DNA of 64,000 bases from Spirochaetota bacterium (GTDB lineage: Bacteria > Spirochaetota > UBA4802 > UBA5550): NCBI GenBank assembly GCA_017999915.1, contig JAGNKX010000005.1, forward strand, positions 62,001 to 126,000, given 5' to 3'. The notes below the pieces were generated by a model, which worked only from the letters and a program-made list of their open reading frames with translations, ran no database searches and was not told the DNA's origin. Within the stretch, counting starts at the first letter, position 1; every line of letters starts with the position of its first letter. The position numbers and the translations under genes are program-made. Positions 7,922 through 32,187 of this stretch are shown here, piece after piece.

Positions 7922-8863
7922 ATGATATTTCGATACGACAACGAAAGGGACAAGATATTCTTCAGCGAAACCGATGACAGGAAAAACCGTATCGAGTTCG
8001 AGCGGCATGTTCACGCAATCCAGGAGGAATACGGCATATCCGGCCATTACGAGCGTTGGGAATCGGTTTTCCGCGAGCTGACAAGCGTCGATGGCCGCCT
8101 CGAAAGCCCCATCATGTTCTACGACGAGACGGGGGCGAAAATATACAAGTGCCACCTCTTCCCCGAGCACGACTCCGCCGGCAACATAATCTCCATCATA
8201 TGCATATCCCAGGACATCACCGAGATTATGAAGATCATAGACACGATCTGCACGCTCCAGAAAGAGAAGGAAACGATGCTCCAGGAGCTGCACGACCGGG
8301 TGAAGAACAACCTCCAGATCGTCGAAAGCCTTCTCCGCCTGCAGGCCGACCGGATCAACGATTTCAATTACTACTCCCTGTATGAAAATTACATCAACCG
8401 GATCCACGCCATCGCCCTGATCCAGAACAAGTTCTACCAGGAGAACAACCTGGAGGTCGTCAATCTCGGCGAATACATCGGGGACTTTATTGAATCATTG
8501 CAGAAAAACAGGACCCTTGATTCAAAGGAGGTCCGGATCAACCACACCGTGGAGAACGACAAGCTCGAATTAAAGGTCGCCGTACCATGCGCCTTGATAA
8601 TCAACGAGCTCGTCATCAACTCATTGCAGCACGCGTTCCCGCCCGGCACGAAGGGCTCCATAACCATCAGCTTCTCGTGGGATTTTCTCGAGATGGCCCA
8701 CGCCCTCGAAGTATCGGATGACGGCATAGGGATTCCGGAACACGTGGACTGCTACAATCCGGCAACGATGGGTCTTGAGCTGGTGAACGCCCTGGTCCGC
8801 CAGTTGAAGGGAACCATCTCCATATCACGCAACAACGGGACTCACTACAGCATACGGTTCTAG
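7922..8863 (+). CDS. HisKA_2-type sensor histidine kinase with short PAS-like input
   Basis: 313 residues, soluble. Residues 1-105 form a degenerate PAS-like domain with a PAC-type end (IICISQDITEIMKIIDTI). The HisKA_2 dimerisation/phosphotransfer motif ELHDRVKNNLQIVESLLRLQ follows (about 119-138). A HATPase_c domain has the N box IINELVINSLQHAF and the G1 box VSDDGIGIP. GGGGA precedes the ATG. It autophosphorylates on the His of LHDRVKNN and should pass phosphate to a receiver, most simply the regulator at 6845. A close paralogue lies at 17941-18894; both sit beside a chemoreceptor. The chemoreceptor begins 65 nt downstream. Confidence 0.9.
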   Translation: MIFRYDNERDKIFFSETDDRKNRIEFERHVHAIQEEYGISGHYERWESVFRELTSVDGRLESPIMFYDETGAKIYKCHLFPEHDSAGNIISIICISQDITEIMKIIDTICTLQKEKETMLQELHDRVKNNLQIVESLLRLQADRINDFNYYSLYENYINRIHAIALIQNKFYQENNLEVVNLGEYIGDFIESLQKNRTLDSKEVRINHTVENDKLELKVAVPCALIINELVINSLQHAFPPGTKGSITISFSWDFLEMAHALEVSDDGIGIPEHVDCYNPATMGLELVNALVRQLKGTISISRNNGTHYSIRF

Positions 8864-8928
8864 GGAGACACCCGTTTATACATACATTCTCCGCTCAGAC
8901 ACAGTAAATCAAAAAGGGGGCATCAGAC

Positions 8929-10797
8929 ATGAAAACCAAAATAGCCTTTCTCGGAAATCTCAAAATAAAAACAAGGCTCTTCCTATCAAGCGCAATTATC
9001 ATTGTACTGTTCATCAGCGCCTTCGGGCTGTTCCTGATTCCAAAGATGAGAACAAGCATCATCGACCAGAAAAAGCTGAAGCTCAAAGAAATTACGGAGA
9101 TCGGCATAAGCGTCGTCCAGGACCTCTACAACAAGTCCAAAAACGGCGAGATAACCGAAGAGGAAGCCCAGGCACAGGCGATGGCCACGATCAACACCCT
9201 GAGATACGGTCCCGAAGGAAAGGACTATCTCTGGATCAACGACTTCAGCCCCACCATGATCGTGCACCCCTTCGCCAAGAACCTCGAAGGGAAAGACCTT
9301 ACGGATTACAAGGACCCCCACGGCAAGGCCATCTTCGTCGAATTCGCGAAGATTTGCAAGGAAAAGGGGAAGGGATATGTAGACTACATGTGGCAGTGGA
9401 AGGACCAGAAGGACAAGATCGTGCCGAAGATCTCCTATGTGCAATCCTTTAACCAGTGGGGATGGATCATCGGCACCGGCATGTACATCAATGACGTCAA
9501 TGACGAGATCTGGTCCATACTCTTCGTTGTTATCGGGGTGTTCGCGGGCGTAATCGTGCTGATGTTCTCCATATTCTACGGGATCTCAAGGACCATCACG
9601 ACGCCCATAAACGGCATCACCGATATGATGAGGGACATCGCCGAGAAGAACGGCGACCTGACCAAGCGCATCCAGGTGGCTTCCACGGACGAGATCGGCG
9701 AGCTGGGTACGTGGATCAACACATTCATCAACGACATACACGACATCGTCGCCCAGGTGTCAATCAACGCGACGCACCTGGCCCAGACGGTCGAGCAGAT
9801 CTCGAGCGGCAACCAGAACCTCTCGCAGCGCACCTCGGAGCAGGCATCGGCTCTGGAAGAGATCGCCACCATCATAGAGGAAGCGGTCGCCACCATCAAG
9901 CAGAACTCGGAGAACTCCGAGGAGGCGAACCGGAAGGCCGAGGAAACCGCCCAGGTCGTGCAGGAAGCCAAGGACCTTTCGATCAAATCGATCCAGCTCG
10001 CGGAATCCGGCGGCGTCGTGGTGTCAAAAGCCGTCGACTCCATCAACGAGGCGAACAAATCGAGCAAGAGGATCGCCGAGATACTGAAGGTCATCAACGA
10101 TATCGCCTTCCAGACCAACCTGCTTGCCCTGAACGCGGCCGTCGAGGCGGCCCGGGCCGGCGACCAGGGTCGGGGCTTCGCGGTGGTCGCCGGCGAGGTG
10201 CGAAACCTGGCGCAGCGGTCCGCCGGCGCCGCCAACGAGATCAACGAAATGATCACCGATTCCATCAACAAGGTGGAGATGGGGACCGAGCTGGTTTCAC
10301 AGAGCGGCGATTCACTGGTCGGGATCATTGAATCGGCGAAAAAGAACGGCGAGGCGCTGGAGCGCATCATCGTGTCGGTGGGCATGGTGGGACAGCTTAT
10401 CTCGGAGATCGCGGCGGCCGGCGTGGAGCAGCGGCAGGGGATCGAGCAGATCAACACGGCCATAAACGAGATCGACACCACGACGCAGAAGAACGCCTCG
10501 CTGGTCGAGGAGACCGCGTCGGCCAGCGAAATGCTGGTGAACCAGGCCAAGGATCTGATGAACCTGGTCCAGAAATTCGTAATCAACGAGGAGGATGTTT
10601 ATCGCTCGGAAGAGGAAAAGAAGCATGCGCTCCACATGGAAGAGCTGAAGCGCATCGAGGACCGGAGCTCATCCGCGCACCATAGCGGGAACGGGAACGG
10701 CAGGAACCGCGCAAAGGTGGACCTGGGGGCGATCAAAGGGACTGAAAAAAAGCCGATCAGCGAGATCATGAGAAAAGAAGGTTTCAGCGAATTTTAG
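8929..10797 (+). CDS. Methyl-accepting chemotaxis protein with single Cache domain
   Basis: 622 residues. TM1 (about 14-35), periplasmic sCache_2-type sensor (about 40-190, with YLWINDF and a [10 protein letters not shown] end), TM2 (about 193-217), HAMP, then the signalling hairpin with tip [20 protein letters not shown]. Both helices around the tip are 14 residues longer than in the second chemoreceptor of this window, which fits the 40H heptad class. A charged, glycine/asparagine-rich tail of about 70 residues ends in GFSEF, matching the CheR/CheB-tethering pattern x-aromatic-x-x-aromatic. It senses a small periplasmic ligand and controls CheA and flagellar rotation. No che genes are nearby. 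Confidence 0.95.
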
Positions 10798-16478: not shown

Positions 16479-17954
16479 ATGAAGAAGGGTGCAATAATAG
16501 GAATCATCGTCACCGTGATCGCCATAGCGCTGGCCGTAACGGGGTTCTTCGTGTTCGCCAAGAACGACATAGAAAAAGCCATCGACGAGTTCGAGGACGG
16601 AGACTACAAGGAATCGATCCTGATGCTGAACCGCCTCGCCAAAACTGCCGATTACGATAGGGGCGAAAAGGTCTATTATTACCGGTGCCGCGCCATCAAC
16701 CGCCTGGCCTCGAAGCTGGAGGAGAAATTCAGCGACGAGCTCGTCGAAGCCGCCCAGGAAAAGAAAAGCACCGAGAGCTATCGCGAGTCGAAAAAGGAGA
16801 TCGAGGAATACCTGGCCGGTCTCAACAGGAAGATCGAGGGGGACCTGGCCCTGGTCCCGGCGATGAAAAAGAGCCGCATCGTCCCCCGGGGGAAATTCTA
16901 CGAGGAGTTCATGGCACGCTACCGGGGCAGCGGCCTCATCGAGGACCTCCAGTTTGAGGAGGTGCAGAACCTGGGCAAGACCGATCCGGACCGCCTCGTC
17001 CCGGCCATGATCAACTTCTACAACAAGTATCCCAACACCGATTACATAGCCAGCATCGTGAAGATACTCTTTGACGGTCTCCAGTCGGGCAGGCTCACGG
17101 CCTCCGGCAACGAGGAGATCCTCTGGGAAATGATCATCGCCTACGTGAAGCGCTACCCCACGAGCCCGGAGACCAACAAGCTCTATTCCTGCACCGGCGA
17201 CAACGTGAACCTGCGCAACTCGCCGGGCGTCGGCGGAAAGCTGGTGGGCAAGATCGCCCACGATGAGATCCTCATACAGCTTGAAAAATCGATGGACACG
17301 ACCCAGGTGGGGGACGTGCGCGACTACTGGTACCGCGTCGCCAGCCTCAAGGGCCCCAAGGGATGGATCTTCGGGAAGTTCCTCGCCCCCATCGACCTCA
17401 CGAAATACAAGGAAACGGAAACCGAGGAAACCTGGACCCTGGACGAGCGCTTCGCGGAATGGAGCGATTCCCACACGCCCGCCAACTGGACCCACGTTCC
17501 CGGCGGAGAGAGCGCGGGCATCAACTTTTCCAACAAGGGCGGCAGGAAAATCGCGGAGCTCAACTCCGCCAAGGGATCGACGTCGGGGCTCTTCAGCCGC
17601 TTCAGCGCCTCCCGGGCCTTTTCCATACAGTCGCGGGCCCGCTTCACCGGGGGCGACGGCCTCACCATCTTCGCCTATTCGCCGGGGGGAGACGCCGCGT
17701 ATTACGTGAGGCTGACGGCGGACCAGGTCGAGTTCTGCGGCAGGACGATCCCCCTACGCACCCTCGACTGGCACGATTTCCTCCTCTCCAGCGAGGACGG
17801 CCGGTTCGCAAAGCTCACCATTGACGGCGAGATGGTGTCGACCAAGATCGAGCCGGTAAAAAGCGGCAGCTTCCCCACGCGGGGAATATACTGTCTCTTT
17901 TCGGCAAAGAATGAGAACTCCCGGGGCGAGATGGAATTCATCAAGGTGAGGTAG
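16479..17954 (+). CDS. Membrane-anchored protein with SH3b and beta-sandwich domains
   Basis: 491 residues. An N-terminal membrane anchor (GAIIGIIVTVIAIALAVTGFFVF) is followed by a helical, TPR-like region (about 30-235). An SH3b domain follows (about 236-305: CTGDNVNLRNSPGVGGKLVGKI ... YWYRVASLKGPKGWIFGKFL). The C-terminal beta-sandwich (about 330-491, FARFTGGDGLTIFAYSP-like pattern) resembles LamG/DUF1080 jelly-rolls. Most of it should lie in the periplasm, perhaps binding peptidoglycan or polysaccharide. A strong GAGGAAGGA precedes the ATG. It overlaps the convergent kinase gene by 14 nt. Confidence 0.75.
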   Translation: MKKGAIIGIIVTVIAIALAVTGFFVFAKNDIEKAIDEFEDGDYKESILMLNRLAKTADYDRGEKVYYYRCRAINRLASKLEEKFSDELVEAAQEKKSTESYRESKKEIEEYLAGLNRKIEGDLALVPAMKKSRIVPRGKFYEEFMARYRGSGLIEDLQFEEVQNLGKTDPDRLVPAMINFYNKYPNTDYIASIVKILFDGLQSGRLTASGNEEILWEMIIAYVKRYPTSPETNKLYSCTGDNVNLRNSPGVGGKLVGKIAHDEILIQLEKSMDTTQVGDVRDYWYRVASLKGPKGWIFGKFLAPIDLTKYKETETEETWTLDERFAEWSDSHTPANWTHVPGGESAGINFSNKGGRKIAELNSAKGSTSGLFSRFSASRAFSIQSRARFTGGDGLTIFAYSPGGDAAYYVRLTADQVEFCGRTIPLRTLDWHDFLLSSEDGRFAKLTIDGEMVSTKIEPVKSGSFPTRGIYCLFSAKNENSRGEMEFIKVR

Positions 17955-18894
17955 CGTCGTCATCCGGGATGGGCGCCGTCCGTATCCGGAAGGCGATGGT
18001 GCAGCAGGCCCCGACGGGAGTATTGTAAACCGCCGAGCCGCGGAGCTGTCCCGTGAGGATGTTCACCAGTTCCAGGCCGAACCCCTTTTTGGCGTCAGGC
18101 GGTCTGGCGTCGAAGCCGACGCCGTTATCCAGCACTTCCAGCACGCAGTACTGGCCGTAGAGCCTGAAAATGATGTCGATGCGGCCCCGCCGGCCGTCAG
18201 GAAAGGCGTGCTTCAATGAATTATCCACCAACTCGTTCAGAATAAGGGCGCAGGGAACCGCCGTCTCGATGGTCAGGCCGATATCCGCCACCGAACGGAC
18301 AATCTCGACACGGCCGGCGACATCGGGATACTGGGAGCGGATATAGTACGTATACTCCTCCACGAATTCCCCGAAGTTCAGCGACTGCAGCCGGTTTCCC
18401 CGGTACAGGCGCTTCTGGATCAACGATATGGCGTGGATGCGGTCTATAAAGCCGCCCAGCATGTCCAGGTAATTCGGGTCCCCGAAGCGGTCCGCCTGGA
18501 GCCGGAGGAGACTCTCGATGATCTGCAAGTTGTTGTTCACACGGTGATGCACCTCTTTGAGAAGGGCCTGCTTCTCATCTTCCAGCATTTCAATGCTGCT
18601 CTTTCCGGCGCCGTTTTCATCGGCCTTTTCCCGGGCCACCCCGATGACCGACTTCACTGTGCCGTCGGGACCATACTCCGGCATGAAGCTGAATTCCACC
18701 GTGCTTGCCCCGCCGGCATTTTCCCGGATCACGGTGCGCACCGCCGGCACGCCGTCCCGGAGCACTTCCTGGAACATCAGCTCGATGGCCTCATCGCTCT
18801 TTGCGGCGCCGGATCCGACGCCATCCTCCTCCATCGATTGCATGCCGCTCACGAAGAGCCTCTTCATCTCCCGGTCGTATCTGTAGATGGTCAT
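17941..18894 (-). CDS. HisKA_2-type histidine kinase, paralogue of the 7922 kinase
   Basis: 317 residues from the ATG at 18894, chosen because GGAG lies 6 nt upstream; the earlier ATG at 18909 lacks a site. A short PAS-like input region (about 1-95) is followed by the HisKA_2 motif EVHHRVNNNLQIIESLLRLQ and a HATPase_c domain (N box ILNELVDNSLKHAF, G1 box VLDNGVGFDA, G2 GFGLELVNIL). The opening TIYRYDREMKRLFV parallels the MIFRYDNERDKIFF start of the other kinase. It sits downstream of a chemoreceptor and one of the 68-residue proteins and is likely part of that unit. Its 3' end overlaps the SH3b gene on the opposite strand. Confidence 0.9.
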   Translation of the reverse strand: MTIYRYDREMKRLFVSGMQSMEEDGVGSGAAKSDEAIELMFQEVLRDGVPAVRTVIRENAGGASTVEFSFMPEYGPDGTVKSVIGVAREKADENGAGKSSIEMLEDEKQALLKEVHHRVNNNLQIIESLLRLQADRFGDPNYLDMLGGFIDRIHAISLIQKRLYRGNRLQSLNFGEFVEEYTYYIRSQYPDVAGRVEIVRSVADIGLTIETAVPCALILNELVDNSLKHAFPDGRRGRIDIIFRLYGQYCVLEVLDNGVGFDARPPDAKKGFGLELVNILTGQLRGSAVYNTPVGACCTIAFRIRTAPIPDDDATSP

Positions 18895-18938
18895 TCGTTC
18901 TCCTTCCATGACATAACCCGGATTTATTTTTTATTATA

Positions 18939-19145
18939 TCAATGAGAAACGCTATCCCTGCTTTCCAGCAAATCGGCTATAGCATCGAACCCCTTCTCCA
19001 TGACGCCGTAGAAATCGCGGATATTCGCCAGAAGCCGTTCAATCTCCCCGGCGTTCATAGACTCAAGACCGCCCTCAACCATGGTGGTCTTTAGGTCATC
19101 GAGCTGCCTGGTCAGTTCGTTCAGATATTTCATGTTCGGTTCCAT
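18939..19145 (-). CDS. 68-residue helical protein, copy A of a paired family
   Basis: Start at the ATG 19145 (GGAGG 11 nt upstream), not the longer open frame to 19232, because it then aligns end-to-end without gaps with the 68-residue protein at 21509-21715 (22 identical positions by eye). Shared features: N4, YL at 7-8, LDxLK around 15-19, GxLxxM at 25-30, GE at 33-34, RDxY at 43-46, E50, AD at 57-58. It is helical, acidic and has no Cys or membrane segment. The function is unknown. It lies between a chemoreceptor and a HisKA_2 kinase, so a regulatory or adaptor role in that signalling unit is plausible. Confidence 0.75.
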   Translation of the reverse strand: MEPNMKYLNELTRQLDDLKTTMVEGGLESMNAGEIERLLANIRDFYGVMEKGFDAIADLLESRDSVSH

Positions 19146-19332
19146 CTTTAATTCAACCTCCGCATTACTGCATTTATGACACCGGGTAAAGGATCGACGC
19201 AAGGCCATCCCGCATAACAGCGTGTGCATCAATTATGTAAACAGCGGTATTCGTGCGCGTCGAGAGCATTTGATCCATGGTTCATACCTTTCCGGCCATA
19301 CTGCCTGCCTGCTGCTGCGGCTATCAACACAT

Positions 19333-19412
19333 CCCCCCATTAAGAGGAGGGTGAGAGGGGGCCTCATATTTCCCTGAACGGTCATACAAGGCCCCCTCCG
19401 GGGGGGGGTGAG
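19333..19412. repeat. C/G-tract foldback element after the 4HB chemoreceptor
   Basis: Inner perfect stem GAGGGGGCCT / AGGCCCCCTC (19355-19364, 19389-19398) flanked by CCCCCC and GGGGGGGGG tracts. It lies 30 nt beyond the chemoreceptor stop and could act as its transcription end. It belongs by composition to the same class as the elements at 33278, 42550 and 45415. The remaining 19146-19332 stretch holds no gene. Confidence 0.55.
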
Positions 19413-19441
19413 TGCTGTGGGAACAACAATCAATAATTATA

Positions 19442-21187
19442 TCAGAATTCCTCGAAGCCTTCCTTATGCAATAGGTCTTTCATCTGGTCGCCCGGCAAGG
19501 CCCTTGCAGCTACCGCATCAGCGCCTTTTCCGCGGCCATTGCCGTTTCCGTCGGCGAGGGCCTTCTTGGAATTTTCGGCGGCCCTCAGATGAAGCTCATG
19601 ATGCTTCTTCTTGTACGCGTCATTCTGCATCTGCTCCCTGATCTTGAACTTCCGCACCATGTCAAGCAGCTCCTGGGCCTGGTTCGCCATCTCCTCGCTG
19701 GCCGACGCCGTCTCTTCCACCAGCGACGCGTTCTGCTGCGTCATGTTGTCCATCTCCGATATGGCCGTGTTGATCTGGTTTATCCCCTGCTTCTGCTCCT
19801 GGGAGGCGGCGGCGATCTCGTTGATTATCTGCGACGTGGTCTTCGCCGCCTCGGATATCTCGTTCAGAGAGCTGCCGGTCTGGTTCACCAGCTCGGTGCT
19901 CTTATCCACCTTGCTCAGGGCATCCCGGATGAGGCTCTCGATCTCCTTGGCCGCGTTCCCGGAGCGCTGGGCCAGGTTCCGCACCTCGCCGGCCACTACC
20001 GCGAAGCCCCGCCCCTGCTCGCCGGCCCGGGCCGCCTCGACCGCCGCATTCAGCGCCAGCAGGTTCGTCTGGAAGGCGATCTCGTTTATGGTGGAGATGA
20101 TGTCCGCCACCTTCTTGCTCGACTCGTTCATCTCCACGATGGCGTTCACCGCCTCAACGGCGACCTTGTTCCCTTCAAGGGACTTCACGGAACCACCCTC
20201 GGTGAGGTCCTTCGCCCTGATGGCGTTCTCCGCGTTCTGGTTGATGGTGGCCGTGGCCTCCTCGATGGTGGAGGCGATCTCCTCCAGCGACGACGCCTGC
20301 TCGCTGGAGCGCTGTGACAGGTTCTGGTTGCCGCTGGAGATCTGCTCCACCGCCTGGGACAGGTTCTGGGACGCCACCGTCACATTGGAGATGAGCGACT
20401 CCAGGCTGTCGGCGGCCCGGTTCAGCGCCACAGCCAGCTGTCCCAGCTCGTCTTTCTGGTCAAGGTCGATACGCTGGGTCAGGTCGCCGTCGGCGATCTT
20501 CCGGGCGAAGTCAAGGCCCTTCCCCACCGGCCGCGACACGGCCCCTGAGAGTATGGCGGTTATGACCATCCCCATGGCTATGGCCACGACGAGGAACGCC
20601 ACGGCCATGATGGTCGTGTTACGGGCGCTGGCGGACTGCTCCGCAAGGAGCTTCTCAGCCTCTTTCTGCTGGACCTCGATGAGCCTGTCCGTCTGGTCCC
20701 GGAGAGCCTGGTATTCCACCTTCCATTCCTCAAGGTACTTCTTGCTGAGGGCGAGGTCCCGGGCGTCCAGGGCCCTGGCGAAGGATGCCCTGAAAGCCTT
20801 CGGCTTCTCCGCCAGTTTTTCCCATTCATCAGCCAGTTTCTTCTCCTCCGCGGTCATCGCGGTGGAGGTGAACTTCTTCCAGAGCTCCATGTATTCACCG
20901 GACAGCTTTTTGGAGTCTTCCTTGCGCTTCGCCACCTCGCCCCAATCGTTATTTTCCGCGCTGAGCATTTCCTGCACCATGTTGACGCGAATCTGCAGAA
21001 GGTTCCGCATGATGTGGTTAAGCTGGCGCACGGGGGTGAAACGGTCATTGTAAAAAATGCCGAAATCGGCATCGGCCGTTCTTATGGCGTAGATCCCCTG
21101 AATTGAGATGGCTGCTATGATGACCAGGAATACAAGGCATGACAGAAAGACCTTCAAACTCACTCGTAAATTATTAAACCATTTCAT
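19442..21187 (-). CDS. Methyl-accepting chemotaxis protein with four-helix-bundle sensor
   Basis: 581 residues. TM1 (about 10-32), a periplasmic helical 4HB_MCP domain (about 35-188), TM2 (about 193-215), HAMP ([19 protein letters not shown]), and a signalling hairpin with tip [20 protein letters not shown]. Helix lengths on both sides of the tip equal those of E. coli Tsr, so it is of the 36H class. A flexible tail of about 65 residues ends with GFEEF, a CheR/CheB-tether-like pentapeptide also seen on the other chemoreceptor. GAGGAGG precedes the ATG. It is flanked on both sides by the paralogous 68-residue proteins. Confidence 0.95.
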
Positions 21188-21508
21188 TGCCCGTTACCTC
21201 CTCATAAGTATCTTTGGATTGATCATATTTCTCCAGGAATCGTTTAAGCACGGACACATTACAGGCTGTTCTGTTCTACGCGGATTGCAATGGAGCCGTC
21301 TTATGATTAAGCTACCATGCCGAGAAGAGCTTGTAAATAATCTCAAGAGGGTAAAAATGAAGAGTTTGATGTATATTTTTTTAAAACGATTATAAATGAA
21401 GAGTTAAAAAGTATTACACAGTTTATGAAGGATTTACCCTGAAGGTGGTAGTGATTGTCTAACCAAAAGGGTTAAACCGATGGGGACGGCTCGGGGCGGC
21501 GGGTCACT
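21188..21508. other. Intergenic region, no gene seen
   Basis: 321 nt, AT-rich in the middle, between the chemoreceptor start and the second 68-residue gene. It must hold the chemoreceptor promoter on the minus strand, but I see no confident hexamer pair. The short plus-strand frame at 21108-21395 has no support. Confidence 0.4.
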
Positions 21509-21715
21509 TTATCCTTTTGTTCCCCCGTTTTTCTCGATTTCATCGGCCAGCTTTTGCAGCTCCGACTCCAGGAGGGCATAGACGTCCCGGAGCTGTTCGA
21601 GAAAGAGCTGCATCTCCCCGCCGGTCATGCCCCCGAGGTTCCCGTCGGCGATCTTCTGCTTCAGCTCATCGAGCCGGCTGGCCAGATCGGCCAGGTATTC
21701 AATATTGGCATCCAT
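21509..21715 (-). CDS. 68-residue helical protein, copy B of a paired family
   Basis: Gapless paralogue of the protein at 18939-19145 (same length, about one third identical). It begins MDANIEYLADLASRLDELKQ and has the shared GE and RDxYxxxE motifs, ending in a Lys/Gly tail. It follows the NarL-type regulator by 18 nt on the same strand and is therefore probably translated with the two-component genes. It is not a known Che or Kai adaptor by recall. Being next to response regulator and kinase genes suggests it binds one of them; this is inference from context only. Confidence 0.75.
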   Translation of the reverse strand: MDANIEYLADLASRLDELKQKIADGNLGGMTGGEMQLFLEQLRDVYALLESELQKLADEIEKNGGTKG

Positions 21716-21733
21716 ATAATTTACACGGGGATA

Positions 21734-22393
21734 TCATACCTGTATGAGCCCCTCCCGCACGGCGTAGCGCACCAGGTCGGCGGTGCTGTCGGCCTTAATC
21801 TTGCGCATGATGTTGGCCCGGTGGACCTTCACGGTCTGCTCGGAAATACGCAGCATGGCGCCGATCTCCTTTCCCGTGTAACCCTCGGCGACGAGCTTGA
21901 TGACCTCCTTTTCCCGCTCCGACAGGGACGGGAGGACGCCCTCCTTCGCTTCTGCCGGTACGGGGCGCGCCCCGGTCATGCCGTCAACAAGCATCTTGGT
22001 GATGTTCGGGTCAAGGTGAATGTTACCCCGGGACACCTCGTCGATGGCCCGCACCAGGTACTGGCTGGCGCTCTCCTTGAACAGGTAGCCCTCGACACCG
22101 AAGCCGAGGAGCTTGTTCACGTACTCCTCGTTGCCGTGCTGGGACAGGATGATGATCTTGATCCCGGGGTGATACTTCTTGAGCTGCCGGGCCACGTCGA
22201 TGCCGGTCATCACCGGGAGCGAGATGTCGAGGATGACCACGTGGGGCTTGATCCGCTCGATCTCGTCCAGGGCGGTCCTGCCGTCACCGGCCTCGCCGAC
22301 GACCCGGTAGCCGGGCACGGCCCCCAGGATGACCTTCAGGCCGTCCCTGAGCACGGCATGATCATCAACCAGATAAATGTTCACGCTATCCAT
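21734..22393 (-). CDS. NarL/FixJ-type response regulator
   Basis: 219 residues from the ATG at 22393 (GGAGG 6 nt upstream); a GTG two codons earlier is less likely. Receiver domain with D10/D11, phospho-acceptor D56 (VVILDISLP) and the lysine of GYLFKESA; then LuxR-type HTH LSEREKEVIKLVAEGYTGKEIGAML with recognition helix ISEQTVKVHRANIMRKI. It overlaps the end of the NarX-type kinase gene by 8 nt (ATGGATAG), so the two are translationally coupled and almost surely a cognate pair. Confidence 0.95.
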   Translation of the reverse strand: MDSVNIYLVDDHAVLRDGLKVILGAVPGYRVVGEAGDGRTALDEIERIKPHVVILDISLPVMTGIDVARQLKKYHPGIKIIILSQHGNEEYVNKLLGFGVEGYLFKESASQYLVRAIDEVSRGNIHLDPNITKMLVDGMTGARPVPAEAKEGVLPSLSEREKEVIKLVAEGYTGKEIGAMLRISEQTVKVHRANIMRKIKADSTADLVRYAVREGLIQV

Positions 22394-25300
22394 GTCCACC
22401 CTCCGCCGGAATTGTTATGCTGATCCTGGTGCCGGAGCGGCCCGTATCGAGCTCGAAGGAGCCGTTCAGATGCTTGACGCGCTGCTTCATGTTGATGATA
22501 CCGAAGCCGCCCTCGGCGCTTCTCGGCGCTCCGGGCTCGAACCCGCTGCCGTCATCGGCTATCTCCAGGACGAAGGCCCCGTCCCGCCGGCGCAGGTCCA
22601 CCCTGGCCCGGCCTGCGCCGGAATGCCGCGCGATGTTCGAGCAGGATTCCTGGATGATGCGGTACAGGTCCATCTGCACCTCGATGGACAATTGCAGCTC
22701 CTCGTCAATAGTAACGTCGGCATCAATGCCCCGGTTCGCCAGAAAATTTTTCGTGTAGAGGCGCACCGCCGCCGCGAGTCCCAGGTCTTCCAGGACCGCG
22801 GGGTAGAGGTTCGAATACACCTCCCGGAGCTCCCTGCTGGCCAGGTCGATGAACTCCATGGCGGTATCGAAGCGGTCCATGTTCTTCTCCGGGTCCTGGT
22901 TGAAGGCGGCGAAATTGAGCTTCGCGGCGTTCATCATCTGGCTCACGCCGTCGTGGAGGTCCTTGGCCACCCGCTGCCGCTCCTGTTCCTGGAGGGTGAT
23001 GATGTGACGGTTCAGCCGGAGGATCTCCTCTTCCGCGTTCTTACGGTCCGTGATATCGCGGTGGCTCCCGCGGCGGCCCAGGGCGCGGCCCTCCCGGCCG
23101 TACACCATCTGGCAGCGGTGCCCTATCCATCTGACAGCGCCGTCCCTGCGCACGATGCGGAAATCAAAACCCTGTGTTTCACAGGATATGTCGCCGGGAT
23201 TGGCGAAATGGTCCCGGACGCGGTCCGCGTCTTCGGGATGCACCACGGACAGCATCAGGTCCGGGTTCGCGATGAACTCAGCCGGTGCGTACCCGGTGAT
23301 CCGCTCGCAGGAGGGGGACATGTAGAGGATGCCGCCGTCCGAGCCGAACCAGAATTCCCAGTCGAAGGTGAAATCGGCCACGGTGCGATACCGCTCCTCG
23401 CTCAGCCGCACCAGGTATTCGGCCCGCTTCCGCTCAATGATGATATTGGCGTTGGTGAGAAACTCTGCAATGGTTTTTATGTCCTCGCCGGAATACTCCG
23501 ATTCCTTGTTGGCCACGGCCCCCAAGGCCACGATCCTGCCGCTCCTGAAAACCGGCACCGAAGCGAGCCTGGTCAGCGGAACATGCCCCTCCGGGAGGCC
23601 GCGCTTGCCCGCGAAATCCACCCTGTAATCGTTAATCACCACCGCCCGGCGGCCCCGCACCGCCTCCGCCCATATGCCCGATTCGGCGATGTTGAAAACC
23701 AGGGGCTTGTTCCCCATGGCGCACCGGGCCATGGCGGCACGGGACCATGAGTAGACGCTCATTTCACTCTCATCGTCGTTGATGAAACCGTAGAAAGCGA
23801 AGGCGCTGCCGGTCAATTTCATCATTTCCTCGAGAATATAATCCGCCAGGATCTGGAGGTCCCGGTCCTGCTGCTTCGACAGGCCCCAGAGGGCCTCCAG
23901 GTTGCGTATGAGCCTGCTGCGGGACTCCTCGGCGAGCTTTCGCTCGGTGATATCCTGGCCTATGCCGATGAAACTTCCGTTGGTGAGCGCCACATTGGCC
24001 CACGCGGTGTAGAGGACCGTGTCGTATTTTGTTCGGGTCATGAATTCACCCCAGGTTCCCTTTCCATTCAGCATGAATTGCATCACCCCTGACCTGTACT
24101 CATGATCTGGATAGCACAACTCGAGGAGATTATTTTTTTTCATTTCGCCATAGGACCAGCCCAGCGTCTTCGTAAAGTATTGATTCATCCATATGAATTC
24201 TCCCCTCTCATTGAAATAGGCTATCATGACCGGAATATTATCGAGGATGGTCTGGAGTATCTCCTTCTGCCGGCGCAGGTCATCGTCGGCCATGAGCTTG
24301 GCCATGCTGATGGCGATGAAATCGACCAGACGCTCCAGCCACGCTATTTTCTCGGCCGTATAGAGGCCCTTCCGCCGGTCGTTGAATTGGAAGAGACCCA
24401 GCACAGTGTCCTTCACGCGGATCGGGATCAGCGCCACCGACTCGTATCCCTCGCCGTTGCAGCGGTTCCGGGTTCGCGCCTGGCGGTCCTCCTCCGTGGT
24501 GGTGGCCAGGAGCTCAGTGGTGCAGCTTGACCAGAAGCTCCCGCCGGGAGTGAAGAAGGGCTTCGACGGGTCGAAGCGGCCGCAGATGATGTTGCCGCAC
24601 ATGCAGTCCAGGACCGGGTTTCCGGACTCATCGCGACGCGCCCGGCCGTCCAGGTCGCGGGCGCAGAGGCTGTTCTCCGCCAGGACGAACTCCTCGGCAA
24701 AGCCTTTCGTTTCATAATAGGGGAAGTCTTCGCCGTCCCGGAGACGCACGCCCACGGCCTCGCACCCGACGATATTTTTGAGGTACAGGGTGAGGCCCTG
24801 GATCAGCTCCTTGACGCTTTCGGCCCGGTTGCACCGGCGGAGGAGCTCCCGCTCGATAGTGGTCGTCTCTTCGGCGATCTTCAGGTCCGTAATGTCTCCC
24901 ACCGCCAGTATTATATTGTCCCGCCCTTCGATGGCGACCAGCTCCGCGTTGATGCTGAGCCAGCGCTTCTGAAGAGCGCCGTTTATCAGAAGGTCGGCTT
25001 CCACCTCCCTGTTGGTCACAGGCACGCCGCCGGCCAGCACGCTCTCGATGCTGTGCCGCAATGGGCACTGGGGGCATGAGGTGGAATATCCGCATCCCCG
25101 GGGGTCCTCCTGGCTGTGGATGCAGCCGATGCCGCCGCCGGCGCGCCGGCCTATGATTTCGGCGGGATCCCGCAGGACGATGGCCCCCGCCGTGGTATTG
25201 GCCTGGGTTATGACCAGGTCGGCGTCGAGAAGGAGCAGCCCCACCGGCGCCATGGAGAAGATCTTCAGGAAATTCTCATGCTCCTGCTTGAGCACGGCCT

Positions 25301-27389
25301 CGGCTCGCTTGCGCTCGGTGATATCAAGGATGAAGTTCAGGCTGCATCGTTTAGTTAAGATTTGAATTATTTCACTGGAAACGATACAATCCCGAATCTC
25401 GCCTTTTTTCATGCGGTATCGGGCTTCAAAATTCCTCACCCTGCCCCGCGTGATAAGTTCTTTTATATAACGGTCCCGTTCCCGTGTATCGATCCACACA
25501 TCGACGTCAATGGAACTGCGGCCTACGACCTCATCCCTGTCAAAGCCGCTTACCGTGAGGAATGATTCATTGACATCGATGAAGATTCCCTCGTCGATCG
25601 TCTGGATGGTTACGGCTTCCGGAGTGGCCATGAAGGCCTTGGAAAATTTTTCTTCCGACAGCTTGAGCCGGTCCTCCATCTGCTTGCGCTTGGTTATGTC
25701 GATGCATATGCCGCCCATGCGCACCGCCGCTCCATGTTCGTCGTACACGCCCCTTCCCAGGGCGATTATCCATCTGACTACCCCGCCCGGCAGGATGACG
25801 CGGTACTCGTTATAGAGATCCTTCCGCTCCTCCAGGGTCCTGCTTATCTTCGCCTCCGCGGCTTCGAGGTCCTCCGGGTGGACCGTAGAACGCCACACAT
25901 CAAAGGACGCCTCGGTCACTGATTCATCAAGGCCGAAGATTTCAAACATCTTCGACGACCAGACAAGCATCCCCGTGGGAATGTCCCAGTCCCAGGAGCC
26001 GGCGCCGGACGCGTTCATGGTAAGCTCCAGGCGCTCATTCATCTCACGGAGGTCAAGCTCGTTCTTCTTGCGCCCGGTGACGTCGCGGCTCACGATAACC
26101 ACGGCCCGGACATCGGGATTTGCCAGCATGTTCTTCGCCGTTGAATCGATCCAGCGCCACGCGCCGTCTTTATGCCGGATCTGCAGCTCCATTTTAAATA
26201 CAATTTCCGGATGTTTTATCACTTCCTTCCATGTGCGCCACACTTCATCCTGATAGTCGGGATGGACCATTTCAAAGGCGACCTGGCCGATCCGATCTTC
26301 GTCCGTATAGCCGTTGATTGCCGTATAGGAGGGGCTCCGGTATAAAACCTTCGCATGCGCGTCAGTGAAAATGATGCCATCATAGCTGTTCTCGACCACG
26401 GCCCGGAACCTGGCTTCACTTTTCCTCAATGATTTTTCAGCCTGTACGCGTTCAGCGATTTCATTCTCAAGCTTCCGGTTTGCCGCGGCGAGCTCAGCGG
26501 TCCGTTCCTCAACGCGCCGCTCCAGCTCGGCGTGGGCCAGGATGATGGCGTCCAGGGCCTGCTTCCGCTCGGTGATATCTTCCATCATGGTGTACAGGAT
26601 CACTTGATCCTTCCACACATAGGAGGTGGAATTGAGGTTCATGTCGATAAGTACACCGTTCTTGCCGACAAGAACCGTCTCGAAATCCCTGAGATATCCC
26701 GTATCATGCAGTTGGGCTAAAACTCGTTCGCGGTCTTCGGGATCGGCATATAGATCCTTCGTCTTTAAAGCCTTCATTTCGTCCAGTGAATACCCCAGGA
26801 TGGCGGTTAGGGCCGGATTACAATCCAGAATGTCACCGTCGAGCGTGGCAATGCCGATACCAACACGGGTATTTTCATAGAGAGCGCGATACCGCTCCTC
26901 GCTCTCAGCCAGCTCCTTGTTGGCCCTCCGCAGCTCCCCGGTGCGCTCCTCTACACGCTGTTCAAGCATATCGTGAGCGGCCCGCAGTTCAGCCTCGGCG
27001 CGTTTCCGTTCCCTGTCGATCCTGTGCATGTAGAGGGCCGTTTCGATTGACGCGCGCAGCTCCTGGTCCTGGACCGGCTTCACCAGATAGCCAAAGGGCA
27101 TGGCCTGCTTGGCCCTGTCTATAGTCCCTGTTTCGGAGTAGGCGCTCACGAAAATGATCGCGGTACCGTGGTTTTCCCGGAGCTGTATCGCGGTTTCGAT
27201 GCCATCCATGGGGCCCTTGAGCTTGATGTCCATGAGCGCCAGGACGGGCGGTTCCCGATCGGAGAGCATCAGGGCCTCGGCGCCGGTGCGCGCGGTCACC
27301 GTGCGGAATTCCCACCGGGAAACGATGCTCGCTATTTCAAGGGCGATGATTTCATCGTCTTCGACAACCATGATCAATTCACCGGCCAT
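22386..27389 (-). CDS. Giant NarX-type hybrid kinase: REC, 7 PAS, 2 GAF, HisKA_3, HATPase
   Basis: 1667 residues, no membrane segment. Domain order: receiver (1-120, D54 in LALMDIKLKG); coiled coil; four PAS domains; a fifth PAS with a cysteine-rich stretch (GCIHSQEDPRGCGY, then CPQCPL); a cysteine-bearing GAF (LCARD, CMCG, RNRC); PAS; a second GAF (SAFAFYGFINDDESEMSVYS); PAS; HisKA_3 phosphotransfer helix (QEQERQRVAKDLHDGVSQMM) and HATPase_c (SNIARHSGAG, IADDGSGF). HisKA_3 kinases pair with NarL-type regulators, and one is encoded with an 8-nt overlap. The cysteine clusters suggest a redox, metal or heme input. GAGGAGG precedes the ATG. Confidence 0.93.
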   Translation of the reverse strand: MAGELIMVVEDDEIIALEIASIVSRWEFRTVTARTGAEALMLSDREPPVLALMDIKLKGPMDGIETAIQLRENHGTAIIFVSAYSETGTIDRAKQAMPFGYLVKPVQDQELRASIETALYMHRIDRERKRAEAELRAAHDMLEQRVEERTGELRRANKELAESEERYRALYENTRVGIGIATLDGDILDCNPALTAILGYSLDEMKALKTKDLYADPEDRERVLAQLHDTGYLRDFETVLVGKNGVLIDMNLNSTSYVWKDQVILYTMMEDITERKQALDAIILAHAELERRVEERTAELAAANRKLENEIAERVQAEKSLRKSEARFRAVVENSYDGIIFTDAHAKVLYRSPSYTAINGYTDEDRIGQVAFEMVHPDYQDEVWRTWKEVIKHPEIVFKMELQIRHKDGAWRWIDSTAKNMLANPDVRAVVIVSRDVTGRKKNELDLREMNERLELTMNASGAGSWDWDIPTGMLVWSSKMFEIFGLDESVTEASFDVWRSTVHPEDLEAAEAKISRTLEERKDLYNEYRVILPGGVVRWIIALGRGVYDEHGAAVRMGGICIDITKRKQMEDRLKLSEEKFSKAFMATPEAVTIQTIDEGIFIDVNESFLTVSGFDRDEVVGRSSIDVDVWIDTRERDRYIKELITRGRVRNFEARYRMKKGEIRDCIVSSEIIQILTKRCSLNFILDITERKRAEAVLKQEHENFLKIFSMAPVGLLLLDADLVITQANTTAGAIVLRDPAEIIGRRAGGGIGCIHSQEDPRGCGYSTSCPQCPLRHSIESVLAGGVPVTNREVEADLLINGALQKRWLSINAELVAIEGRDNIILAVGDITDLKIAEETTTIERELLRRCNRAESVKELIQGLTLYLKNIVGCEAVGVRLRDGEDFPYYETKGFAEEFVLAENSLCARDLDGRARRDESGNPVLDCMCGNIICGRFDPSKPFFTPGGSFWSSCTTELLATTTEEDRQARTRNRCNGEGYESVALIPIRVKDTVLGLFQFNDRRKGLYTAEKIAWLERLVDFIAISMAKLMADDDLRRQKEILQTILDNIPVMIAYFNERGEFIWMNQYFTKTLGWSYGEMKKNNLLELCYPDHEYRSGVMQFMLNGKGTWGEFMTRTKYDTVLYTAWANVALTNGSFIGIGQDITERKLAEESRSRLIRNLEALWGLSKQQDRDLQILADYILEEMMKLTGSAFAFYGFINDDESEMSVYSWSRAAMARCAMGNKPLVFNIAESGIWAEAVRGRRAVVINDYRVDFAGKRGLPEGHVPLTRLASVPVFRSGRIVALGAVANKESEYSGEDIKTIAEFLTNANIIIERKRAEYLVRLSEERYRTVADFTFDWEFWFGSDGGILYMSPSCERITGYAPAEFIANPDLMLSVVHPEDADRVRDHFANPGDISCETQGFDFRIVRRDGAVRWIGHRCQMVYGREGRALGRRGSHRDITDRKNAEEEILRLNRHIITLQEQERQRVAKDLHDGVSQMMNAAKLNFAAFNQDPEKNMDRFDTAMEFIDLASRELREVYSNLYPAVLEDLGLAAAVRLYTKNFLANRGIDADVTIDEELQLSIEVQMDLYRIIQESCSNIARHSGAGRARVDLRRRDGAFVLEIADDGSGFEPGAPRSAEGGFGIINMKQRVKHLNGSFELDTGRSGTRISITIPAEGGHG

Positions 27390-27436
27390 GGGGCGCCTCC
27401 TCTGATCTCCCTCTCATCCTGCACCTGCCATCTTCA

Positions 27437-30400
27437 TCAAAAAACAATCTCGATCCTGGCCCCGCCCGCGTTGCCGGCGGCAATGGTCCCGTTGAGTTGC
27501 CGGGTCAGGGCCGTCACGATCTGCATCCCCAGCGATTTTTCCGCAGAGCTGATCAGGTCATCGGGGATGCCGGGACCATCGTCCTGGACCACAAGCCTGT
27601 GCCTTCCATCGCCTTCCGCGACAAAGCTTATTGAAAGCGTGCCGCGCCTGCCTTTGGGAAAAGCGTGCTTGAAAGAATTGGTGATGAGCTCGTTGAGGAT
27701 GATCCCGCAGGGAATGGCCTGGTCGATGCCGAGATACACATCCCGCACGTCGAATTCGAGGGCGACCTGCTGCCGCTCCAGGCTGAAGGAATAGAGAAGG
27801 CGCTCGGCAATCTCACGGACATAACGGGAAAAATCGACCCTGGCCAGGTCGTCGGAGTGATAGATCTTTTCGTGCACCATGGCCATGGCCTGGATGCGGT
27901 TGCTGCTTTCCATGAATATGCCGCGATACCTGTCGTCGTCTATCTTGCGCGCCTGGAGCGATATGAGGCTGGAAACGACCTGCATGTTGTTCTTCACCCG
28001 GTGGTGCAGCTCCTTGATGAGCACTGTCTTTTCCTCCAGCGACTTCAGGAGCATCGCGTCGTTCCTGAGGCGGACCACGGCCATTGCGTAGATGCTCCCG
28101 AGGCGGCGGGCCATCTTCAGGTCATCCTCGGTGTAATCCCTCGCCGAATCGGCGAGGGCGATCTGCCCGACGAGGTCGCCCCCGTAGACAACCGGCACCG
28201 ACAATAAGCGCGAAAACCGGGGAATGCCGCCGGCATCCTCCCCGGATGCGGGATGGCTCCCGGGATCGTTCGTGAAGAATTCGCGCCTTGTATTGAGGGA
28301 ATGTCCAATGAGCCCGGGATACCGGCCATCGGCTCCCCTTTTTACGAGGACGGGCCTCTGCACTCCATTGATAGGAGGCGGGCCGAACATCCCCGTCAGG
28401 GCAATGCCGATACCGTCGCCGGTGTCCGGATCGATCTCCGAGACAAAACCGTGGTCGCTGTCGGAAAGGAGGCGGGCGTATTCCAGGACCATGTAGGCGG
28501 TTTCCGAAATGGAGTAGGACCGTGATATGATGGAGCCTGAAATGCCTGCCAGGGCCATGTTGATGGCCAGCTGGCCGTGGAGGTCGTCCTCCGATTTTTT
28601 CTTCTCCGTGATGTCCTCCCCCGAGCTCAGGGTGCCGGTGATCGCGCCGGAGGCATCCTTGATTACGGTATTGTGCCAGGCGATCAGGCGCTCTTCTCCG
28701 GAGGCGGTCACCACGGAATTTTCATAATATTCAACCGGTGAGATATCGCCCTTGATCAATCGATTAAAAACGTCCTTCATCTCTTCCCTGATTCTTTCAT
28801 GAACGAACGTATCAAACCACTTTTTACCCATGATCTCCTCATAGGAATACCCGAGGATCTCGCATCCCTTGCGGTTGATAAGGGAGACTCTCTGATCGTC
28901 ATCGATGGCAACGAACATGACCCCGGCGATATCAAGGTACTTCTGGGCGGTTTCCTTTTCTCTACGCAGTTCCCCGGAAACACGATACTGCTCCGTGATG
29001 TCCCGGGCGGCGGCATAGATATGGATACCGTCGGGAGAAGCGGAGCGCCATTCGATCCAGCGGTAGGTTCCGTCGATTCTCCGGTACCTGTTTATGAAAT
29101 TCAGGACATCCTTTTTCCGGGACAGATCCGCTGTCGCAGCCAGGGTTCCCGCCAGGTCATCGGGATGGACGAAATCGAGGAACCGCCTGCCTTCAAGGTC
29201 CTCCAGGCGGTACCCGAGGGCATTTTCCCATTCCGGGTTGATCCGCAGGAAATACCCTTCCGTATTGGCAATGCAGAGCAGATCGAGGTTGACGTTGAAA
29301 TAGCGATTCAGCTCTTCCGTTTTTTCCAGAAGGGCCTTCTCGGCCCGCTTGCGGTCGGTTATATCGTTGAAGATAGCGACAAACATGTTGCCGCCCCGGG
29401 GATAGGCCCGTGTTTCATACCAGCGGTCCAGCTGCTCCACATAGTTCTCAAACACTTCAGCTGTTCCTGACCTGACCACCCTGCCATAGGACTCGATCCA
29501 GAATGAATCGATGCCGGGTATGACTTCCCGGACCGTTTTGCCGATGACATCCCTGAGGCCGGTGAGATTCTCGAATGCGGGGTTAACCTCGATGAACCGG
29601 TAATCCACGGGGTTGCCCCGGTCATCTAATATCATTTCGTGGAGGGCAAAGCCGCTGGATATCTCCGTGAAGAGCCGGCGGTACTTATCCTCGCTATCCC
29701 GAAGGTCCTTCTCGGCTTTTTTCCAGTCGGTAATGTCCACGGCGATCGAAAGGAGCCGCTTTTTACCGCCGATAGTGATATGATCGCCGCAAAAGATGAC
29801 CTGCCGGGGGCCTCCCTCCCTGGGATAGACCGTAAGGTCCACACCGCTGGCTATGCCGTATTTTCTGACGATTTCCGTGTAATGCTCCCGGTCCTCGAGA
29901 CGCACATACCCCGTGTCCAGGGTTTTTCTCCCTATCAGCTCCTCACGGGTGAAACCCGACTGTTCAACAAACTGGCTGTTCACATCGATGATGGTGCCGT
30001 CCTCGACGCTGGTTATGCTCATCAGAACGGGGGCGTTCATGAAGGCCTTGGCGAACTTTTCCTCGCTCTCCCGCAGGGCCTCCACGGCTTCCCTGCGTTC
30101 CGTGATATCCACGATAATTCCGTCATAGGCATAGAGCCTGCCGGCGGCGTCATGATAGGGCACCGGGGTGTTCCTCACCCAACGGACGGCGCCGTCCTTC
30201 CGGTAAATTCGATGTTCAATGGGCCACGGGCGGTTCTCCTTCAACAGATCCTCAACCTGTTCCCGCACGGCCTGACGGTCATCGGCATGGACCATGTTGA
30301 TCCATAGATAGGGATCATCGTTGAGCTCGCGGGCGGTGTAGCCTGTCACGGCCAGACAGGCGCTCCCGTGGACAGTCCCGACCGGCCTGCCTCCCTCGAT

Positions 30401-31984
30401 GGCTACCGTGAAAATATAATCCGTTATGGATTCCGTTATGCGCCTATATCGCTCCTCGCTCTCCCGCAAGGCTTCCTCGGCACGCCTGCGGTCCGTTATG
30501 TCAATGGCTGATTTGATAATGCACGGCATACCGCGGATGGTAACGGGCACGGCGGAATAGAGAACCGTGAGGATAGCGCCGCCCTTATTGCGGATCTCGA
30601 TCTGGCAATCATGCACCGTGGCCCCGCGGTTGATCTCTTCGTGGATCCTGCGCTCCTGCCCGGATTCAATCCACAGGCCGAGGTCATCGGAGGAGCGTCC
30701 TATCACCTCCTCCCGGGCATATCCCGTCAGGGCAAGAAACTCATCATTTACATCGATATACCTGCCGTCATGGGCCCCGGACAACGCGATCGACATGGGC
30801 GAAAGATGAAAGATCTTGGAAAACCGTTCCTCGCTCTCCCGGAGAGCCTCTTCACCGCGCTTGCGCTCGGTGACGTCGATGAATTGACCCAGGAGGCATT
30901 TGAGGTCGTCGATGATGATCGGCATCGCGGCTATATCGGCATAGAAGACAGAGCCGTCCTTCCTGCGGCAGGGCAATTCCCTTGAGATCTGGTATTTTTT
31001 TTCCATAAGGGCGCTGAACTCGCCATGGATTCTTTCCAGATCTTCGGCCGGGTGGATGTCATCAACACCCCGGGCAAGCATTTCTTCGCATTCGTATCCG
31101 AACATGGCGCAGGCGGACGGATTGGCGAAGACGAAGCGCCGGTTTTCAAGATCGGCGGCGATAACACCAACGGACGAATTCTCAATAAGGGTCCTGAACC
31201 TGGCTTCGCTCATGGCCAGCTCGAACTGGGACCGGTACAGGTCATTGTTCGTTCTCTCCATTTCCTCCATGGAGGCCTGGAGCTCCTCGTTCACGGCGTC
31301 GAGCTCTTCATTTGAGGCCGCAAGAGCCTCCACCTGATTCTCCAGGTTGTTCATAATGGGATTGCTGATCCGTCCGATGGCAATGACGCCGGCAAGGATT
31401 ATCAGCAGGGAAACGGCGACTATGATGATGCCGCTCCTGATGTAGGGGGCGCGGAATTCGGCCATGTCGATCTTTGCCACCACCCCCATGTTCCGCCCTG
31501 TTATATGCTCATAGGCTGCCAGCACGGTCCTGCCATGGTAATCCTTTCCCGTCATGGTTCCGGACTTCCCCTCCAGGGCCCGGCGCATCGGCTCCGCCAG
31601 GCCGGAATATATTCCTATTGTTTTTGGATGCTCGGCACGGCCATAATGCCTGAGCGCCGCAATAAAGCGGATCTTATCCTTATCCAGAAACGCGATAGTG
31701 AGCTCCATTTTTCTTTTATGGCGCTCATAGTTCCGGATGGCGTCCACGATTCCTTCCGTGGAAGGAATGACCTGGCCGGCCGGCCACGCTTCAGCGCCCC
31801 CATCACGCCCCGGATACGGCCTTGGCTCAAGAAGATGGGCCAGAAGCTTGGCGGCATCCGCAAGGTGGATCCTTGTTTCTTCAATGGATGTTTTATACAG
31901 GAGGATATTGGAAAAGATGCTGCCGCACAACACAAGGGCGGACATGATCAGGATGATATAGATGATTCGTTTGCGCTCTTCCAT
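27437..31984 (-). CDS. Membrane multi-PAS/GAF HisKA_2 histidine kinase
   Basis: About 1515 residues from the ATG at 31984; a GTG at 32014 is in frame and neither has a clear ribosome-binding site. TM1 (RIIYIILIMSALVLCGSIFSN), a periplasmic region of about 160 residues, TM2 (SGIIIVAVSLLIILAGVIAI), a coiled coil, seven PAS domains, a GAF domain (SGSIISRSYSISETAYMVLE), HisKA_2 (ELHHRVKNNMQVVSSLISLQ) and HATPase_c (ILNELITNSFKHAF, VQDDGPGIP). It senses both periplasmic and internal cues. It is the first gene of a run through the NarX-type kinase (47-nt gap) and NarL-type regulator. It has no receiver of its own. Confidence 0.92.
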   Translation of the reverse strand: MEERKRIIYIILIMSALVLCGSIFSNILLYKTSIEETRIHLADAAKLLAHLLEPRPYPGRDGGAEAWPAGQVIPSTEGIVDAIRNYERHKRKMELTIAFLDKDKIRFIAALRHYGRAEHPKTIGIYSGLAEPMRRALEGKSGTMTGKDYHGRTVLAAYEHITGRNMGVVAKIDMAEFRAPYIRSGIIIVAVSLLIILAGVIAIGRISNPIMNNLENQVEALAASNEELDAVNEELQASMEEMERTNNDLYRSQFELAMSEARFRTLIENSSVGVIAADLENRRFVFANPSACAMFGYECEEMLARGVDDIHPAEDLERIHGEFSALMEKKYQISRELPCRRKDGSVFYADIAAMPIIIDDLKCLLGQFIDVTERKRGEEALRESEERFSKIFHLSPMSIALSGAHDGRYIDVNDEFLALTGYAREEVIGRSSDDLGLWIESGQERRIHEEINRGATVHDCQIEIRNKGGAILTVLYSAVPVTIRGMPCIIKSAIDITDRRRAEEALRESEERYRRITESITDYIFTVAIEGGRPVGTVHGSACLAVTGYTARELNDDPYLWINMVHADDRQAVREQVEDLLKENRPWPIEHRIYRKDGAVRWVRNTPVPYHDAAGRLYAYDGIIVDITERREAVEALRESEEKFAKAFMNAPVLMSITSVEDGTIIDVNSQFVEQSGFTREELIGRKTLDTGYVRLEDREHYTEIVRKYGIASGVDLTVYPREGGPRQVIFCGDHITIGGKKRLLSIAVDITDWKKAEKDLRDSEDKYRRLFTEISSGFALHEMILDDRGNPVDYRFIEVNPAFENLTGLRDVIGKTVREVIPGIDSFWIESYGRVVRSGTAEVFENYVEQLDRWYETRAYPRGGNMFVAIFNDITDRKRAEKALLEKTEELNRYFNVNLDLLCIANTEGYFLRINPEWENALGYRLEDLEGRRFLDFVHPDDLAGTLAATADLSRKKDVLNFINRYRRIDGTYRWIEWRSASPDGIHIYAAARDITEQYRVSGELRREKETAQKYLDIAGVMFVAIDDDQRVSLINRKGCEILGYSYEEIMGKKWFDTFVHERIREEMKDVFNRLIKGDISPVEYYENSVVTASGEERLIAWHNTVIKDASGAITGTLSSGEDITEKKKSEDDLHGQLAINMALAGISGSIISRSYSISETAYMVLEYARLLSDSDHGFVSEIDPDTGDGIGIALTGMFGPPPINGVQRPVLVKRGADGRYPGLIGHSLNTRREFFTNDPGSHPASGEDAGGIPRFSRLLSVPVVYGGDLVGQIALADSARDYTEDDLKMARRLGSIYAMAVVRLRNDAMLLKSLEEKTVLIKELHHRVKNNMQVVSSLISLQARKIDDDRYRGIFMESSNRIQAMAMVHEKIYHSDDLARVDFSRYVREIAERLLYSFSLERQQVALEFDVRDVYLGIDQAIPCGIILNELITNSFKHAFPKGRRGTLSISFVAEGDGRHRLVVQDDGPGIPDDLISSAEKSLGMQIVTALTRQLNGTIAAGNAGGARIEIVF

Positions 31985-32187
31985 GGTTTTACATTTTTTT
32001 TGATAAATAAACACACCCGGAACGATACCACTTTAGTACATTATACTTTTTATGTAGAGCTTATCAGAATCAATCCCCCGAACTATACTTTTATATTATC
32101 ATTTTCCGGAAAAAACGGCATTTTTTCTCTGACACAAAAGAAGAATAATAAAATACATGACGACTGTCAATGTAAAAAACCGAAGAT

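Follow-up and report, generated by a model that had tools for sequence, protein, structure and literature searches.

A narrowly distributed pair of paralogous 68-residue proteins in a two-component and chemoreceptor gene cluster of a Spirochaetota bacterium

Two small genes of equal length stand on either side of a chemoreceptor gene within a group of two-component genes in the window, which is the whole stretch of 64,000 nucleotides analysed here. Are they real and related genes, and which part of the signalling machinery do they serve? The analysis describes a new family of small proteins, narrow in its distribution and bearing traces of a duplication; as to function, we infer that its members are probably helical accessory proteins that modulate a two-component system.

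The small genes and their neighbours

The features of the cluster are as follows, from the upstream to the downstream end.

27437-32014, minus strand: HisKA_2 kinase of 1525 aa with PAS/GAF, HisKA_2 and HATPase domains
22386-27389, minus strand: hybrid kinase of 1667 aa with a receiver, PAS/GAF repeats, HisKA_3 and HATPase
21734-22399, minus strand: NarL-type response regulator with Response_reg and GerE
21509-21715, minus strand: small gene 1 (product P0003), 68 codons and a stop
21188-21508, minus strand: gap of 321 bp from small gene 1 to the chemoreceptor (MCP) gene; the MCP gene may be transcribed on its own
19442-21187, minus strand: chemoreceptor of 581 aa with 4HB_MCP_1, HAMP and MCPsignal, C-terminus GFEEF
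19174-19278, minus strand: 34-codon ORF, probable degenerate N-terminal end of a NarL-type receiver (VYIIDAHAVMRDGLASIL), ending 28 bp before small gene 2
18939-19145, minus strand: small gene 2 (product P0002), 68 codons and a stop, paralogue of small gene 1 and syntenic with P0004 of the related genome G097
17941-18909, minus strand: soluble kinase of 322 aa with HisKA_2 and HATPase

The order of transcription is HisKA_2 kinase, hybrid HisKA_3 kinase, NarL-type regulator, small gene 1, 4HB MCP, small gene 2 and HisKA_2 kinase. This confirms the arrangement given in the initial annotation, with one small gene after the NarL regulator, the other before a HisKA_2 kinase and the 4HB chemoreceptor between them. 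That annotation also spoke of one two-component operon, which is not established because of two long gaps, the 321 bp before the MCP gene and 296 bp between the MCP gene and small gene 2. The hybrid kinase and regulator genes share 14 bp, a gap of 18 bp lies between the regulator and the downstream small gene 1, and small gene 2 is followed after 29 bp by the gene for the 322-aa HisKA_2 kinase. Tight linkage is thus confined to the regulator in the case of small gene 1 and to the last kinase in that of small gene 2.

P0002 and P0003 align without gaps from end to end, with 22 identities and 37 positives in 62 positions (BLASTP, E 3e-14). Both are exactly 68 residues long, and both are encoded on the minus strand, which the initial annotation had not given; its length, its gapless alignment with 22 identities and its claim of paralogy all hold. 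The ungapped BLOSUM62 score of the pair is 116, against 21 for the best of 5000 shuffles, and the next-best score among all pairs that can be formed from the window's 13 ORFs of 68 aa with an ATG start is -5, which excludes chance as the source of the likeness. When the whole genome was searched with small gene 1, the sole other match was small gene 2 (E 1.2e-8). The two genes differ mostly at the third position of their 68 codons (25, 23 and 41 differences at first, second and third positions), supporting two expressed and selected genes. Across the three pairs formed by P0002, P0003 and P0004, dN is 0.5-0.7 and dS about 0.9-1.8, and the ratio is not leaned on because dS is near saturation. 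The pairing of the small genes is real, and their two products are paralogous.

A soluble HisKA_2 kinase and an MCP are paired twice in the window. The second, paralogous cassette consists of a 313-aa HisKA_2 kinase (7922-8863) followed by a 622-aa single-Cache MCP (8929-10797).

A putative regulator remnant ahead of small gene 2

The 296-bp gap ahead of small gene 2 holds the 34-codon ORF (19278-19174), which reads ...TAVYIIDAHAVMRDGLASILYPVS-stop. In local alignment it matches the N-terminal end of the regulator of the cluster (VYIIDAHAVMRDGLASIL with IYLVDDHAVLRDGLKVIL) at z 11.9 against shuffles, and tblastn gives E 7e-6 over this short stretch. In a search against six genomes of the genus, its best match was the orthologue in G097 of the regulator of the cluster (48%, E 0.006), followed by the window's own regulator (52%, E 0.015), both ranking above the other regulators of these genomes; a separate search for regulators had given 61-134 first-look candidates per genome of the genus. 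Pfam called no domain in the ORF, the receiver match being 18 residues long. Such a remnant could not work as a receiver, because it has no phospho-acceptor region.

The receiver remnant suggests that small gene 2 probably once stood behind the same kind of regulator, so that the constant neighbour of the small genes would be a response regulator and not a receptor. Judging from these alignments, an ancestral unit of response regulator and small gene was probably duplicated, after which the second regulator would have been lost, with ~24 codons of its start left over, and the small gene behind it would have survived; we hold this with moderate confidence and not as certain.

Distribution of the family and of the cluster

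The initial annotation had tied its proposal to the presence of homologues in related genomes, and one was found. A third member, P0004, also 68 aa long and about 35-38% identical to P0002 and P0003, is encoded in G097, a congeneric MAG (contig CALMRZ010000078.1, 'uncultured Spirochaetes bacterium'), at the syntenic place between MCP and HisKA_2 kinase. Its gene is preceded by a good ribosome-binding site and by no regulator remnant. Identity between G097 and the window is 89% for the regulator, 80% for the MCP (assembled C-terminal half), 67% for the HisKA_2 kinase and 35% for the syntenic small gene. An orthologue of small gene 1 is not observable in G097, because of two breaks in the assembly: contig C90 stops within the regulator, at residue 206 of 221, and contig C78 starts within the MCP. 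The hybrid kinase has 1667 aa in the window and 670 aa in G097 (L101 11956-13968), with the C-terminal kinase part 70% identical; the difference in length reflects rapid gain or loss of PAS/GAF modules.

The family is present in two of the 46 genomes of the order, which is far narrower than expected for a general signalling adaptor. A three-row profile found no further member in these 46 genomes or in 393 genomes sampled from the phylum, and none was found in the plasmids, viral contigs or phages searched. A scan of 84,980 species genomes was made with a single strict N-terminal pattern, so distant members may exist elsewhere. The family is previously undescribed and apparently restricted to one genus.

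The cluster itself has a similar distribution. In G122 the gene of an SH3 protein, which in the window stands to the left of the cluster (16479-17954), directly abuts cobT (window 32188-33228), and in G107 only two genes lie between them, neither with a counterpart in the window; these junctions mean that the 14-kb cluster (17941-32014) is absent from the same site in congeners. In G135 the neighbour at the corresponding site differs. The 14-kb signalling cluster is present in two related genomes and missing at this site in congeners, a lineage-specific gain or loss.

Other genera and families of the order have orthologues of the regulator, at 48-54% identity. Those of other families work without a small gene, so the small gene is not essential for such a regulator. 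In one family (L102 1905-17413, L103), orthologues of the hybrid kinase and the NarL-type regulator, without a small gene, head a chemotaxis set of 4HB MCP, CheA, CheD, CheB and CheW, which suggests an old link between the NarL-type regulator and chemosensory genes. In another genome (G139, L105 7691-11439), a regulator orthologue and a PAS kinase precede genes that, judged by eye, resemble those of ectoine biosynthesis.

Predicted structure and possible function

AlphaFold2 models from the three-row alignment show two helices in each protein, at residues 2-23 and 32-64 in P0003 and 2-26 and 32-66 in P0002, with moderate confidence (pLDDT 76-77, pTM 0.43-0.45); both are thus predicted to be two-helix hairpins. 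In the models helix 2 exceeds helix 1 by about 12 residues, and its amphipathic end may be free for dimerisation or for a partner. Across the three members, columns 5, 8, 11, 15, 18 and 22 and columns 35, 38/39, 42, 45/46, 49, 53, 56 and 60 are hydrophobic throughout; this a/d (3-4) spacing on both helices would suit dimerisation of the hairpin or its docking to a bundle of helices. Hydrophobic moments computed from single sequences are weakly above those of shuffles. Fifteen columns are invariant, among them the polar N4, E34, R43, D44, E50 and E61. The proteins carry a net charge of -5 to -7, lack Cys and membrane segments, and share no conserved His. Fold searches of the models with Foldseek and VIA-align gave nothing significant, and the geometric neighbours of the second model were mostly designed helical-hairpin proteins.

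According to the initial annotation the two proteins match no familiar adaptor, which agrees with the searches of Pfam, NCBIfam, PHROGs and PDB sequences, where no significant relative was found; profile searches likewise placed them in no well-described family. Several weak matches were set aside. The HAAS signalling domain (PF22564) resembles P0002 alone, over 16 N-terminal residues of the 55-residue domain, and scores 12.9 bits (E 0.15) where 27 are required. Carbonic anhydrase 4o1k of the PDB gave a 27-residue match taken as chance. Among weak genome matches (E 0.0007-0.1), those inspected lay inside a large AAA-type ORF, MCPs and other unrelated frames and were likewise regarded as chance, as was a repeated match in a 971-aa ORF of one family (probably coiled coil), judged by its length and spread. 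In a related genus, a stretch of an HD-type protein of 455 aa (L034 / L106 144-1511) resembles the C-terminal half of P0002 at E 0.04, probably by chance, and a Pseudomonas plasmid match (E 0.02) covers 50 residues inside a 378-codon gene annotated as a hypothetical protein. A Hpt domain is ruled out since the family has no invariant His and no Hpt match, and a CheW-type adaptor since there is no CheW match and the prediction is all-helical.

The small size, the lack of a known domain or catalytic motif and the genetic tie to the HisKA_3 kinase and NarL-type regulator make an accessory protein that alters phosphoryl flow the best-supported reading. We therefore favour, tentatively and at somewhat less than an even chance, a young lineage-specific family of helical hairpins that act as accessory regulators of the hybrid kinase and NarL-type regulator pair, and whose ancestral unit of regulator and small gene was duplicated. 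As for partner, sign and chemistry, we infer that these small, acidic, cytosolic hairpins would dock on the receiver or on the four-helix bundle of the kinase, in either case at a helical surface, and that docking would change the phosphorylation level of the regulator by blocking, dephosphorylating or promoting transfer. The second small protein would have been kept beside the HisKA_2 kinase, where it would probably provide this same regulator with a further input. Against this reading, the counterpart of small gene 2 in G097, the only assembled relative, stands without a regulator remnant, and there is neither homology to a family of known function nor a direct sign of interaction. A bolder version, in which a new connector family was born in one spirochaete genus as escort of the regulator and one twin, having lost its regulator after the duplication, was re-assigned to the HisKA_2 kinase, so that two kinases, and perhaps a chemoreceptor as well, are wired to one regulator, seems to us rather unlikely.

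The position of the small genes could also be read from the side of the chemoreceptor. They flank the MCP gene, in both genomes the MCP and HisKA_2 kinase genes have small gene 2 between them, and a helical hairpin could pack on the MCP coiled coil; as receptor accessories, the proteins would bind the helical hairpin or linker of the MCP and either connect the receptor with the neighbouring HisKA_2 kinase or adjust the receptor's signal to CheA. However, the second cassette of HisKA_2 kinase and single-Cache MCP (7922-10797), which is kept in G097 (L045 16384-19292), has no small gene in either genome, small gene 1 and the MCP gene are 321 bp apart, and the CheA genes of the genome are on another contig. 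Gene pairing, including the decayed second regulator, points to the response regulator in preference to the receptor, and we regard the receptor role as unlikely and as weaker than an action on phosphoryl flow between kinase and regulator.

Also unlikely, in our estimate, is a conserved gene outside signalling, such as one that helps assembly or stability, or a young orphan gene of no dedicated role that hitch-hikes in a horizontally gained cluster. Confinement to two genomes of one genus would fit it, as would the fast evolution of the small gene, which is 35% identical where the kinase is 67%, the C-terminal half of the MCP 80% and the regulator 89% identical. However, the third-position bias, the length of 68 aa in three diverged copies and the 15 invariant columns point to selection, dN/dS itself being near saturation.

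The least probable reading is a special case of the accessory regulators, in which the invariant D44 on helix 2 would be inserted into the receiver and dephosphorylate or block it in the manner of Spo0E. Spo0E has two helices and is predicted to bind the Spo0A receiver, the Asp of its SxxxD motif being critical (PMC11115286). The small proteins resemble the Spo0E-like aspartyl-phosphate phosphatases (PF09388) as small cytosolic proteins with two predicted helices and a loop, within its 40-100 aa range at 68 aa (pLDDT 76), as well as in the invariant R43-D44 on helix 2 and in the pairing with a response regulator, on which their action here is a proposal. They differ from it in their phylum and in their link to a NarL-type regulator instead of Spo0A. 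The SxxxD signature (PMC11115286) is absent from P0002, P0003 and P0004, hmmscan gave no match to PF09388 up to E 10, and a genome-wide search with this model hit only unrelated places at E about 1.

Pfam holds a DegQ family and a Sda family, and neither is among the Pfam-A matches of the three members. DegS and DegU are a HisKA_3 kinase and a NarL/FixJ-type regulator, the same classes as in the cluster. DegQ of Bacillus subtilis, a small soluble modulator of this pair, raises DegS-to-DegU transfer (PMC5118428); unlike the small genes, degQ is not duplicated around a chemoreceptor, and the Pfam scan gave no sequence match. Sda of Bacillus/Geobacillus is likewise a small helical protein, which acts on the DHp four-helix bundle of KinA/KinB and binds the base of the KinB DHp (PMC8534201), but it has 46 aa, acts on HisKA-type kinases and has no sequence match to the small proteins. 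Spo0E, DegQ and Sda are published precedents for small helical proteins with such an action, and the small proteins may work by analogy with one of them, while belonging to none of these families.

Small modulators of two-component systems are under-annotated, and a paralogous pair with a duplication trail, in which the regulator was probably lost and the small protein kept, offers a tractable case of how a kinase or regulator acquires a dedicated modulator. Generality is limited by the narrow distribution, and if the function is confirmed, the family would be a new example of a known principle and not a new principle.

The two MCPs of the window (19442-21187 and 8929-10797) both end in an aromatic-xx-aromatic tail, GFEEF and GFSEF respectively, which is kept in both G097 relatives. 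These tails resemble the pentapeptide that tethers CheR/CheB to enterobacterial receptors.
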